This document shows positions 2,070 to 6,481 of a stretch of 24,440 nucleotides of DNA, piece after piece. The notes below the pieces were generated by a model. It saw nothing but the letters and a program-made list of their open reading frames with translations, was not told the DNA's origin and searched no databases. The translations under genes and the position numbers were made by a program. The DNA is from a virus. Each line of letters starts with the position of its first letter. Position 1 is the first letter of the stretch. The DNA lies in IMG/VR virus record IMGVR_UViG_3300046012_000279, positions 1 to 24,440 of that record. One strand, 5' to 3'.

Positions 2070-2284
2070 GCCGCCCTCCGATCTTTACCTCGTCTACGTT
2101 CTTTTTTCTCGCATACCTGTTCCAGCAGTGTGGCGGGAGACCCGCTCCAACAGTGGCATACCGAGCATCTCCAGATGTTAGTCAGCTCGGACATGCCTAC
2201 GTACTTGCCACCGCTGTAGGAGCGGTATCTCCAGCGGGGCAGGAATACGAGGGTGCATCTGACTTCAGCGGGAACTTGCTTCAT
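2066..2284 (-). CDS. Small basic hypothetical protein (72 aa)
   Basis: The chosen ATG at 2284 overlaps the stop of the winged-helix gene as TGATG; a longer in-frame version from 2371 would overlap that gene by almost 90 bases and is less likely. The product has a CSVCHCW cysteine group near residues 43-49 and a strongly basic tail (KKERRRGKDRRAA), suggesting metal and nucleic-acid binding, but this is inference. No family is recognised. Confidence 0.55.
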   Translation of the reverse strand: MKQVPAEVRCTLVFLPRWRYRSYSGGKYVGMSELTNIWRCSVCHCWSGSPATLLEQVCEKKERRRGKDRRAA

Positions 2285-3042
2285 CAGTCTTCTCCTGTAA
2301 TGTCGATAACGTCTGGGTCCAGCTTGTCCGGCTGAGCAGGCAGCGAATAGTTGTTGATGTCGTACCAGCACAACTTCCCGTTTATAACCGTCTTAGGTAT
2401 CATGTGGCCCAGTCTGTAGCGGGCGTTAAAAACTACGTGCGACGACCATTTCTTCTCTTCCCAGGCTTTCTTTAATACGTCATCTTCAGGCACGGGACCG
2501 TTCTCAAGTACACTTTCCAACCACTCCTGCACCTCTGGCCCTCCCCAGACCCAATACCAATGACCGTCTATGAGAACATTTTTAATCTCCATCTCTTTAC
2601 GCGCTGTAGAGATTGCTTTACCCGTAGTGTGAATGTGCAGTCCGCGCAGATAGTCTCGGGCGTCAAGAGCAGAAGAACAGTAGTTGGAATAGCGGGATAG
2701 ATACTCGGTCAGCTGCTCTTGAGCCTCTTCAGCGTGACGCTGAGTAAAGTCTTGAGGGGCTTTGTAGGCATTGCCCTTATTGTGAACGTGACGCGCTGAC
2801 ATGTACTCAAGAGCTTCGGCAAGCGTACGTTTGGGATACATCCAGTACCATCGCCCAGCGATCTTCTGTGATATTACGCCCAGCGCCCTGCGTGCTCGGA
2901 TGATGCTGACGTGCGAACCACTGACCTGTTCAAGAGCTTCAGCGGATGCGATCTTTGGTTTTCTACCCGTGGTGTATTTGGGAAAGAGACGGTGAATCTG
3001 CCGAATAATTTGGGTAACTCGCTTGCGGTCTTTTATTCGCAT
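2284..3042 (-). CDS. Protein with three winged-helix-like repeats, possible repressor or initiator (252 aa)
   Basis: First gene of the leftward cluster, 48 bases downstream of the promoter at 3091-3119. Three related segments can be aligned by eye: residues 33-69 (ending AGRWYWMYP), 125-166 (ending DGHWYWVWG) and 187-228 (ending NGKLCWYD). Each has a helical stretch, a pattern like ARxxLGxI, then a hydrophobic strand with G-x-W-Y-W. This resembles the small winged-helix modules at the C-terminus of phage and plasmid AAA/primase proteins (ARKxLGV...GxWYWxLP). DNA binding is therefore likely, and repeated DNA sites lie just upstream. No ATPase or nuclease motif is visible. Whether it represses, activates or starts replication is unknown. 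Confidence 0.65.
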   Translation of the reverse strand: MRIKDRKRVTQIIRQIHRLFPKYTTGRKPKIASAEALEQVSGSHVSIIRARRALGVISQKIAGRWYWMYPKRTLAEALEYMSARHVHNKGNAYKAPQDFTQRHAEEAQEQLTEYLSRYSNYCSSALDARDYLRGLHIHTTGKAISTARKEMEIKNVLIDGHWYWVWGGPEVQEWLESVLENGPVPEDDVLKKAWEEKKWSSHVVFNARYRLGHMIPKTVINGKLCWYDINNYSLPAQPDKLDPDVIDITGED

Positions 3043-3090: not shown

Positions 3091-3119
3091 AGTTTAGTGT
3101 GGTGACGTAGAGGTGTCAA
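3091..3119 (-). promoter_or_regulatory. Putative promoter of the leftward gene cluster
   Basis: On the - strand TTGACA (3114-3119, perfect) is separated by exactly 17 bases from TAAACT (3091-3096, 4/6 match to TATAAT). The predicted start would be about 40 bases before the ATG of the winged-helix gene. No transcription data exist; the call rests on box quality, spacing and position. Confidence 0.55.
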
Positions 3120-3165
3120 TAACATTGATCCTTTCTCTTTTTATAGCTGTTTCAACCCTATATCT

Positions 3166-3210
3166 ATTGAGATGACCCACATACATATACTTATTGAGAT
3201 GACCCACATA
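3166..3210 (+). repeat. Left pair of 27-bp-spaced direct repeats
   Basis: ATTGAGATGACCCACATA occurs twice, at 3166-3183 and 3193-3210, start to start 27 bp. The pair faces an inverted pair at 3267-3309 with the same spacing. Possible roles are operator or iteron sites for a DNA-binding protein, such as the neighbouring triple winged-helix protein. Confidence 0.85.
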
Positions 3211-3266
3211 CCAAGATTAAAAATAGCCAAATGAGATGTAAGAGTACATTTCAACTCTTCAAACTT

Positions 3267-3309
3267 TGTGGGTCATCTCAATGAATTGAGGATTGTGGGT
3301 CATATCAAT
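3267..3309 (-). repeat. Right pair of the same repeats, inverted
   Basis: TGTGGGTCATCTCAAT (3267-3282) and TGTGGGTCATATCAAT (3294-3309, one mismatch) are reverse complements of the left-pair motif, again 27 bp start to start. The array is thus a large inverted repeat about 56 bp apart, centred near 3238. The centre holds an imperfect hairpin of its own (GAGATGT and ACATTTC, 3233-3252). Confidence 0.85.
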
Positions 3310-3477
3310 GAGTAGAAGGTTGAATAATGGGGGTAAAGTGAATAGGAATACGATAGATATTAAGTAAAAGGCAAATTGAGTATACATACACAGAAGGGTG
3401 CAGTACGCGCGAGACGAGGCTTTCATCCATATCCTTTTTTAGGATGAGGTTAGGCTTAGGTTATCGGAATAAAGGGA
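3310..3477. other. AT-rich spacer with one small hairpin, no gene
   Basis: No credible ORF is seen. The left part is AT-rich. TCATCC (3423-3428) and GGATGA (3442-3447) can pair around a loop that contains a run of six T. A stretch like this beside iteron-type repeats would suit an origin or control region, but nothing proves it. Confidence 0.4.
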
Positions 3478-3506
3478 TTGACCAAGGCGAGGGGAAACCA
3501 TATCTT
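3478..3506 (+). promoter_or_regulatory. Putative rightward promoter
   Basis: TTGACC (3478-3483, 5/6 match) is followed by exactly 17 bases and TATCTT (3501-3506, 4/6 match). The start would be near 3513. It is divergent from the leftward promoter at 3091-3119, with the repeat array between them, and it precedes a structured leader and a terminator. Confidence 0.5.
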
Positions 3507-3593
3507 TCTCGCAATGGAATCTCTCTTCATGTCGCCGATGGCCCAAGCTGGCGCTAAGCCGTCGGCGGCGAATAACTCCTCGGAGGTGATCTT

Positions 3594-3608
3594 ATGCGGG
3601 ATCGGTAG
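3594..3608 (+). CDS. Possible leader peptide, four codons (MRDR)
   Basis: GGAGGTGATC (3582-3591) is fully complementary to the 3' end of 16S rRNA and sits 7 bases (counted from GGAGG) before ATG CGG GAT CGG TAG. The stop codon lies in the loop of the CGGG/CCCG hairpin, about 45 bases before the terminator. A ribosome on this tiny ORF could change the folding of the leader. The peptide is too short for other support. Confidence 0.25.
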   Translation: MRDR

Positions 3609-3653
3609 CCCGTCTGATATATCGAATCAATCCAAATGGGGTACGCAAGAGAG

Positions 3654-3685
3654 AGGGTCGGCTGATCAGTCGGCCCTTTGTTTTG
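3654..3685 (+). terminator. Intrinsic terminator upstream of the terminase operon
   Basis: AGGGTCGGCTGA (3654-3665) pairs with TCAGTCGGCCCT (3666-3677) along the whole length with two G-U wobbles; the central four bases form the loop. TTGTTTTG follows directly. It lies upstream of the structural genes, so readthrough or antitermination would be needed unless another promoter lies downstream. Confidence 0.65.
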
Positions 3686-3745
3686 TCTGTCCCAGTTCTA
3701 ATCAGTAACAAAGGTACAACTTATTCCCTCCGAGTCTTGTGGCTT

Positions 3746-3770
3746 GGAGGTGATCTCAACCTCGATCATG
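3746..3770 (+). promoter_or_regulatory. Shine-Dalgarno hidden in a small hairpin
   Basis: GGAGGTGATC (3746-3755), the same ten bases as at 3582-3591, precedes ATG 3768 by 17 bases from GGAGG, longer than usual. GAGGT (3747-3751) can pair with ACCTC (3759-3763) across a 7-base loop and would mask it. This could lower or control translation of the next gene. Confidence 0.3.
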
Positions 3771-4156: not shown

Positions 4157-4738
4157 GTGGCAGGCAGCCCTCTCAAGAAGCTGCGCAAGAAGCTCCAGGA
4201 TGCCGATGAGTTTGGGCTCGATCCGCGGGACAGGGAATTCGTTGATGTGTGGTTCGCCTTCAAGGACGTCACCCGGGCCCTTCATAAAGCATACGGCCCC
4301 AAGGCGGGCAACATCAGCAGCCGCATCTTTGCCAAGCCCGCGGTGCAGACCTACATCGCCCACTTACAGAAAGAACAGCGGCAGCGCTATCCGCACCAAC
4401 ATGAGTGGGTCATCGACCAGCTGCTCTACATCCTCGGCTTTCGTAACAAGATGCTTACCGACGCCGATGGCGCCCCTCTCCCTCTACATGAATGGCCGGA
4501 CGCTGTCGATGCCGCGGTGCAGTCCATCAAGCGTAAGGACTACTTTGAGGGACACGGGGAAGAGCGTGACCTCGTCGGAGAGATTGTGGAAATCAAGACC
4601 TACTCGAAGACTGAAGCCGCACACATGCTGCTCCGCTACTTCGGTGTGGAGAACGGACGCGGCGGCAGCCAAGGCGACCGCTTGAATGAGGTCATCGCCG
4701 CTATGCGTGAAGGGCCGGTAGAACGTGCGAAGAAGTAA
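4157..4738 (+). CDS. terS: Terminase small subunit, Terminase_2-like (193 aa)
   Basis: Recognises phage DNA and hands it to the large subunit for cutting and packaging. A GTG start at 4157 follows GGGAG by about ten bases. Residues about 20-75 match the usual DNA-binding front part of the family: LDPRDREFVDVWFAF, then a helix-turn-helix-like region with HKAYGPKAGNISSRIFAKPAVQ, equivalent to the GYSPKTA...RLLRKPEV pattern of TerS proteins. The C-terminal part (KTEAAHMLLRYFGVENG) matches the helical segment seen in this family (ALxxLGKHxGM). Position before the large subunit supports the call. Confidence 0.8.
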   Translation: MAGSPLKKLRKKLQDADEFGLDPRDREFVDVWFAFKDVTRALHKAYGPKAGNISSRIFAKPAVQTYIAHLQKEQRQRYPHQHEWVIDQLLYILGFRNKMLTDADGAPLPLHEWPDAVDAAVQSIKRKDYFEGHGEERDLVGEIVEIKTYSKTEAAHMLLRYFGVENGRGGSQGDRLNEVIAAMREGPVERAKK

Positions 4739-5101: not shown

Positions 5102-6481
5102 ATGAGCGCTGTAGCACAGTCCGAGCTGTCTGTCCTTCCACTCGAAGAGCGCGTCCTGCGCCCGTTTGGGAAGAAGGCATATGCGTTCGCATTCCGGCCG
5201 CCTGAGCTGGACTGCCGCTACAACATACTCGAAGGCAGTGTCCGCTCAGCCAAGACGTGGGCCATGATACCGAAGATCATCCAGCTTTGTAAGTACAAGG
5301 TAAGAGGCTGGAAGGTTCTGTTCGGCGTAACCAAGTCCACCATCTACCAGAACGTGCTCAGCGATCTCTTCTCCGTGATAGGGCCCGACAACTACGGCTA
5401 CAACAGGCAGACCGGAGAGCTGGACTTGTTCGGGAGCAAGTGGCTGGTCATCGGCGCTAAGGATGAAGGGTCGGAGAAGGCTATCCGCGGGATGACCGTC
5501 GGGTGCAGCGTTGGAGACGAGCTTACGCTTATTCCCCGCTCTTTCGTCATGATGTTGATGAACCGCATGAGCGTGGAGGGTGCCCGCCTGTACGCCACCA
5601 CTAACCCTGACACGCCGCACCACTATGTCAAGACCGACATCCTGGACAACCAGGCCCTTATCAAGAGCGGCGAGCTGTGGACAGAGCACTTTGAGATTGC
5701 CGACAATCCGAACCTTCCCGCGGATTACTTCGCTCATCTCTGCCGCATGTACCCGCCGGGCTCGCTGTACTACCAGCGCTTCGTACTTGGCCTGTGGGTC
5801 ACTGGCGAGGGAGCGATCTACAAGGACGTGTGGTCGGAGAAGCTGCTCTACAGCTATCAGCCCTGGACAATGACCAACGGCGAGCCTGGCTGCGTTGCAC
5901 CCAAAGGACTGCTCGACCCGGGCCAGATCGTAGAGCGGTCTATCGCTATTGACTGCGGGGTAGATCACGTCCAGGTTTATCTCGACACCATTGATGACGG
6001 CGAGATTGTGTGGCTTGACCGCGAGTACTGGTGGGATTCGCATATCACTGGACGGCAGAAGACAGACCGCCAGTACCGCGAAGACCTTGAGATGTTCCTC
6101 ACCAAAGCGCCCGCGGCGAAGTGCATCCTGCCTCCTGAATGCGCCAGCTTCGCCGCGGAGCTTGTCCAGGCTGGTATCTGGTACTGCGATGCCGATAACG
6201 AAGTGCTGGACGGAATCAAGATGACATCTACCATGATGGCTCTGGGCAAGCTGCGCTTTCGCAAGCCGCCCGACGGCTACAGCTACGAGGTGTCCGATCC
6301 ATTCCATGATCACGTCGGCGAGACCATCAAGCAGATACAGACCTATATCTGGAATCCGAAGGCTTCATTGCGCGGCGTAGAAGAGCCGATGAAGACCAAG
6401 GATGACGGGCCGGACGCGGTGCGCTACAAGATCAAGACCGACATACCTGATTGGAGAATCGCTCATGCCCAAGCAGCCTGA
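5102..6481 (+). CDS. terL: Terminase large subunit, PBSX/Terminase_3 type (459 aa)
   Basis: ATPase and nuclease that drives DNA into the capsid and cuts it. Walker A-like GSVRSAKT is at residues 45-52, Walker B GCSVGDE at 134-140 with the catalytic Glu, and the coupling motif ATTNP at 165-169. The nuclease half has IAIDCG with Asp 284, an acidic site at PPE (344-346) in the place of the usual DPS, and DDGPDA (434-439) near the C-terminus. These fit the RNase H-like metal site of the family. Length is usual for TerL. The Shine-Dalgarno before ATG 5102 is weak, and the gene follows four bases after the small ORF, so coupling is likely. Confidence 0.93.
   Translation: MSAVAQSELSVLPLEERVLRPFGKKAYAFAFRPPELDCRYNILEGSVRSAKTWAMIPKIIQLCKYKVRGWKVLFGVTKSTIYQNVLSDLFSVIGPDNYGYNRQTGELDLFGSKWLVIGAKDEGSEKAIRGMTVGCSVGDELTLIPRSFVMMLMNRMSVEGARLYATTNPDTPHHYVKTDILDNQALIKSGELWTEHFEIADNPNLPADYFAHLCRMYPPGSLYYQRFVLGLWVTGEGAIYKDVWSEKLLYSYQPWTMTNGEPGCVAPKGLLDPGQIVERSIAIDCGVDHVQVYLDTIDDGEIVWLDREYWWDSHITGRQKTDRQYREDLEMFLTKAPAAKCILPPECASFAAELVQAGIWYCDADNEVLDGIKMTSTMMALGKLRFRKPPDGYSYEVSDPFHDHVGETIKQIQTYIWNPKASLRGVEEPMKTKDDGPDAVRYKIKTDIPDWRIAHAQAA

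Follow-up and report, generated by a model that had tools for sequence, protein, structure and literature searches.

The window (the whole virus record, 24,440 bases) is a linear, incomplete fragment of a tailed-phage genome. Rightward genes from about position 3768 encode small and large terminase subunits (TerS and TerL) and portal, head-morphogenesis, and head-protease proteins, with an inorganic pyrophosphatase-like domain (PF18823; 12627 to 13523) inside the head-gene cluster. Leftward genes, which are probably early genes, occupy the record from position 3042 to its left end. The gap between these divergent blocks, bounded by position 3042 and the terminase genes starting at 4157, holds an array of repeated sites (Table 1).

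Table 1. Features of the array and the surrounding region
Feature	Coordinates	Strand	Remarks
252-aa gene, candidate regulator	2284-3042	-	Internal repeats; winged-HTH-like by eye
Sigma70-like promoter match, TTGACA-17-TAAACT	3091-3119	-	10/12 consensus matches; consensus only
Whole inverted repeat	3151-3324		58-nt arms, 78% complementary
Site 1, ATTGAGATGACCCACA	3166-3181	+	Exact match
Site 2, ATTGAGATGACCCACA	3193-3208	+	Exact match; 27 bp after site 1
AT-rich center between half-arrays	3209-3266		58 bp, 29% GC
Site 3, inverted ATTGAGATGACCCACA	3267-3282	-	Exact match
Site 4, inverted, ATTGATATGACCCACA	3294-3309	-	One mismatch; 27 bp from site 3
Weak promoter-like site	3478-3506	+	9/12 matches; chance level
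Strong intrinsic-terminator-like hairpin	3652-3679	+	Ends structured leader; precedes late genes
TerS	4157-4738	+	PF03592; start 848 bp from array
TerL	5102-6481	+	Terminase large subunit

Four mirrored sites in an AT-rich gap

The preliminary description had reported four 16-bp motifs, two direct and two inverted, with identical 27-bp steps. This was confirmed: the gap left of the terminase operon contains three exact copies of ATTGAGATGACCCACA and one copy with a single mismatch (ATTGATATGACCCACA). When up to three mismatches to ATTGAGATGACCCACA were allowed over all 24,440 bases, exactly four matches were found (chance expectation, 0.14; 0 of 100 dinucleotide shuffles reached four). All of them fell within 144 bp; the motif search proposed for the rest of the genome returned, over this record, the array copies only. 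When the window was scanned for 14-mers with at least three near copies inside 300 bp, the array region alone was likewise picked out. The four-site array is non-random.

The large inverted repeat described for this AT-rich region was also upheld, with 58-nt arms (3151 to 3208 and 3267 to 3324) separated by a 58-nt gap. GC content is 0.54 over the record, 0.35 over 3151 to 3324, and 0.29 in the array center. Individual sites are asymmetric, and the two halves of the array are mirror images. The helical layout first proposed held only in part. The 27-bp step does correspond to 2.57 turns, but this places paired sites on roughly opposite faces of the DNA, whereas the inner inverted sites, 74 bp apart (7.05 turns), are in helical phase.

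Mirrored pairs of direct repeats starting with TGT also resemble IS21-type ends, and discovery of the arrangement within a known insertion sequence had been named as a refuting result. That the sites are such paired terminal repeats of a transposable element is very improbable. With TGT taken as the outer boundary, the ends point away from the 58-bp gap and enclose no element; the record contains no other copy, and no transposase was detected among the window proteins tested. In a limited check, covering the IS21 family in 19 genomes, none of them known to be related to the host of the phage, no known insertion sequence emerged as a source. GACCCACA was missing from 28 of the 30 loci recovered, including all three above the family cutoff, and was present as a single copy in the remaining two (L117 and L123).

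Flanking gene and promoter-like sites

The proposed placement of the array between divergent promoters was borne out only in part. On the leftward side, the TTGACA-17-TAAACT site is a fair promoter candidate by consensus, and its −35 element begins 47 bp from site 1 (the site reads 3119 to 3091). The rightward candidate is weak, and promoter-like matches were at chance level overall (2 found versus 1.4 expected). Downstream, the leader (3513 to 3695) is strongly structured (z = −3.6) and also contains a near-perfect Shine-Dalgarno sequence with a 4-codon open reading frame (MRDR). No RNA family reached its gathering score.

The 252-aa protein encoded left of the array is only a candidate for a regulator that would bind the sites. 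It contains a repeat at residues ~29 to 75, a second at ~119 to 172, and possibly a third at 173 to 235. Repeats 1 and 2 clearly resemble each other (0 of 2,000 shuffles attained their score), repeats 1 and 3 are weakly so (P = 0.035), and the similarity between repeats 2 and 3 was not significant. The protein had no match in Pfam, PHROG, or PDB, and no relative was found in the viral contigs or annotated phages searched or among the array-bearing phages tested. Its predicted structure was discarded (pLDDT of 40).

A ten-base core before the terminase genes of other phages

The preliminary description had proposed a search for the motif in relatives and had named absence of the array from close relatives with the same flanking genes as a refuting result. 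The viral contigs with the closest TerL (41 to 63% identity) showed no comparable array in the stretches examined, and their whole records held only scattered, single core matches. These phages also lack the flanking 252-aa gene, however, so that they are not the kind of relative specified, and the refuting result was obtained only in part. Since neither the array nor a relative of the 252-aa protein could be found, the array is untraceable along its own lineage. A TerL search of bacterial genomes yielded no relative, and blastn with the array as query found no match among plasmids or phages. The exact 16-mer ATTGAGATGACCCACA had five single matches in viral contigs, which we took as chance.

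Two copies of the ten-base core ATGACCCACA within 8 to 30 bp of each other occurred in 50 stretches of viral contigs, compared to 5 stretches (L138 to L142; raw count) for a reversed-letter control and 8 scattered stretches when the 5′ half of the 16-bp motif was used. Many of the 50 consist of densely clustered boxes in both orientations, commonly at steps of 9 to 12 bp and, in lake phages, including contiguous 9-bp boxes. About 23 array families remained after de-replication, among which the 27-bp step occurs four times. Bases flanking the core are variable, except for an A/T preference after CACA. The window sites stop at the same CACA boundary as the lake-phage boxes, and their conserved part reaches 6 bp further 5′ (ATTGAG). 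The same core-pair search of bacterial genomes gave 34 stretches from varied taxa, judged by eye to be mainly isolated pairs or tandem repeats within genes. A Treponema metagenome-assembled genome (MAG) has more than 20 TGTGGGTCAT-like, tandem-repeat-like units at steps of 21 bp or multiples (L077, 136 to 880), and in an Omnitrophota MAG, TGTGGGTCAT boxes in mirror orientation precede a 370-aa gene, Fic-like by eye (L088, 1982 to 2061). A limited search of open-access papers found no description of the motif.

The core arrays of other phages mostly share one location. Together with five loci found by an inverted-pair search alone, the pair search gave 55 viral array loci, and in 49 of them TerS starts 20 to 769 bp from the array and reads away from it. 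At least two of the remaining six (L042 and L059) have the array near the end of the examined stretch. The distance in the window, 848 bp, lies slightly beyond this range. In most members of one terminase set, a conserved 67- to 70-aa gene has its start codon 24 to 34 bp beyond the nearest box, a usual operator position. Its product has a ribbon-helix-helix (RHH)-like pattern with helices as expected; the fold was not confirmed, with no match in PDB. No relative of this small gene was found in the window. Boxes immediately precede a perfect TTGACA-16-TATAAT in L020 and directly follow a promoter-like site in L040.

The position of the array upstream of TerS, in the window as in most other array loci, would also suit a packaging site, in which the repeats would be bound by the small terminase upstream of its own gene (cosB- or pac-like). 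Lambda cosB likewise has repeated 16-bp sites. The core accompanies two dissimilar TerS/TerL sets, and the window terminase is a third; thus, the box does not track TerS. Conversely, the motif differs between phages with about 71% identical TerL. The gap before the terminase genes of DSL-LC05, a relative of the array-bearing set other than that with the 67- to 70-aa gene, holds a repeated TGACCCACTGGG motif instead, and that of Rhodoferax phage P26218 holds a different repeated motif, CTGCTACAAC. P26218 is tied to the array-bearing set of DSL-LC05 through a gene-sharing network (PMC10611076). The TGACCCACTGGG-type repeats lie ahead of TerS (L151, 3598 to 4122) and are overlain by the hypothetical protein WJZ48182.1 (3713 to 4078, minus strand), an annotation that may be an artifact; in P26218, TGCTACAA occurs six times on both strands upstream of the terminase genes (L157, 33141 to 33660). 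Given this mismatch in both directions, the motif does not follow the terminase, and in the window another gene and a terminator-like hairpin intervene between the array and TerS. We therefore regard a packaging function as improbable.

Alternatively, as the preliminary description had suggested, the sites could be iterons of a replication origin; a phage initiator would then bind them, and the AT-rich center would melt. Repeated asymmetric sites do flank an AT-rich stretch, sliding-clamp and primase genes are often present within several kilobases in other array phages, and TGACCCACA shares 7 of 9 positions with the DnaA box. The window itself offered no positive support: it has no exact DnaA box (TTATCCACA), and no initiator or replication gene was recognized among the proteins scanned, although missing genes prove little in a record that is a fragment. 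In the array regions of other phages, a single TTATCCACA contrasts with 125 TGACCCACA, and of 24 records, a single one, which lacks TGACCCACA boxes, had DnaA domain IV above the cutoff. DnaA boxes or a phage DnaA were not supported on these counts, and an origin appears unlikely. A small protein matching DnaA domain IV is encoded among the leftward genes of a circular phage genome (L152, 510 to 806; MW202483.1; E = 3.4 × 10−19).

The likeness of the window array to those of the lake phages may reflect shared specificity or coincidence. Under the latter, the window array would be a real operator or other site, and its likeness to the lake arrays would be fortuitous, many unrelated motifs filling this position. 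Phages with related terminases do bear other motifs in the same gap, and no protein common to the window and the array loci was found among the window proteins tested. Moreover, the core was picked after the window had been seen, so part of the overlap could be luck. Ten identical bases that end at a shared CACA boundary, in a matching genome position, argue against coincidence, as does the tenfold excess of core pairs over the reversed-letter control; this excess shows the core to be common in phage arrays but does not show shared descent of the window array with them. We consider coincidence a serious possibility, somewhat short of an even chance.

A putative operator and comparison with known systems

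We favor, with modest confidence, an operator function for the array: a phage regulator would bind it within the divergent control region, perhaps with DNA looping between the halves. Directly observed are the sites, how they are spaced and located, and the recurrence of the core in same-place arrays of other phages. A conserved location with a varying motif is as expected for regulator/operator pairs and, together with promoter-like positions in some members and independence from the terminase, fits such pairs more closely than it fits packaging sites or origins; these two and insertion-sequence ends are less well supported. Between the cooperative operator with looping and the iteron origin that the preliminary description had offered, the operator is thus the better-supported half, given that boxes with the same core lie before terminase genes elsewhere, between divergent blocks and in some cases at promoter-like sites. 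Against the operator reading stand the absence of the array from the nearest TerL relatives (41 to 63% identity), the failure to find the 252-aa protein in the array-bearing phages tested or their small gene in the window, the longer conserved site and greater TerS distance of the window, and the 27-bp pairs on opposite faces.

As an operator, the array would work as follows. A phage-encoded DNA-binding regulator would occupy the four asymmetric sites between the leftward genes and the terminase/late operon. With mirror-image halves and in-phase inner sites, the bound protein could bridge the two halves, bending or looping the AT-rich center, and the looped array would set the activity of the leftward promoter and might do the same for late transcription. 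Occupancy of the sites, the identity of the protein, and its action as a repressor or an activator are inferences; for the window array, operator function is suggested by position and core motif. If true, arrays at this fixed pre-terminase place would mark, by sequence, the control region in many uncultured phages and offer a route to their regulators, the same motif being found alongside packaging systems that are dissimilar. A bolder version, which we hold to be quite unlikely, is that ATGACCCACA is a common regulatory code at the pre-terminase junction of otherwise unrelated aquatic and soil phages, read by a widely exchanged regulator or a conserved host protein and letting phages sense or repress one another.

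Several known systems share parts of this layout. In lambda OR and OL, a single regulator has several sites between divergent units, with looping between site groups, and the window array has a similar multisite divergent arrangement. However, the lambda operators are individually near-palindromic whereas the window sites are asymmetric, and no CI- or Cro-like gene was recognized in the window. The structured leader recalls another lambda layout, in which the late genes are preceded by a promoter, a short RNA, and a terminator. Operators of the Omega/ParG/MetJ RHH type are tandem short boxes; the contiguous 9-bp boxes of the lake arrays are similar, and one set lies beside the small RHH-patterned conserved gene, whereas the window has a 27-bp step and lacks this gene. 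Iteron origins likewise have repeated sites near AT-rich DNA, but no initiator was recognized here, and lambda cosB is similarly near the terminase, but the window motif does not follow the terminase. Finally, cluster A mycobacteriophages also carry many copies of a short asymmetric site (operators and stoperators), which in the L5 type is read by a repressor monomer with two DNA-binding domains (PMC9283540). These two domains could parallel the repeated domains of the 252-aa candidate, although no homology to the repressor was found. Cluster A stoperators are scattered genome-wide, whereas the four sites of the window are gathered in one gap and arranged with mirror symmetry.
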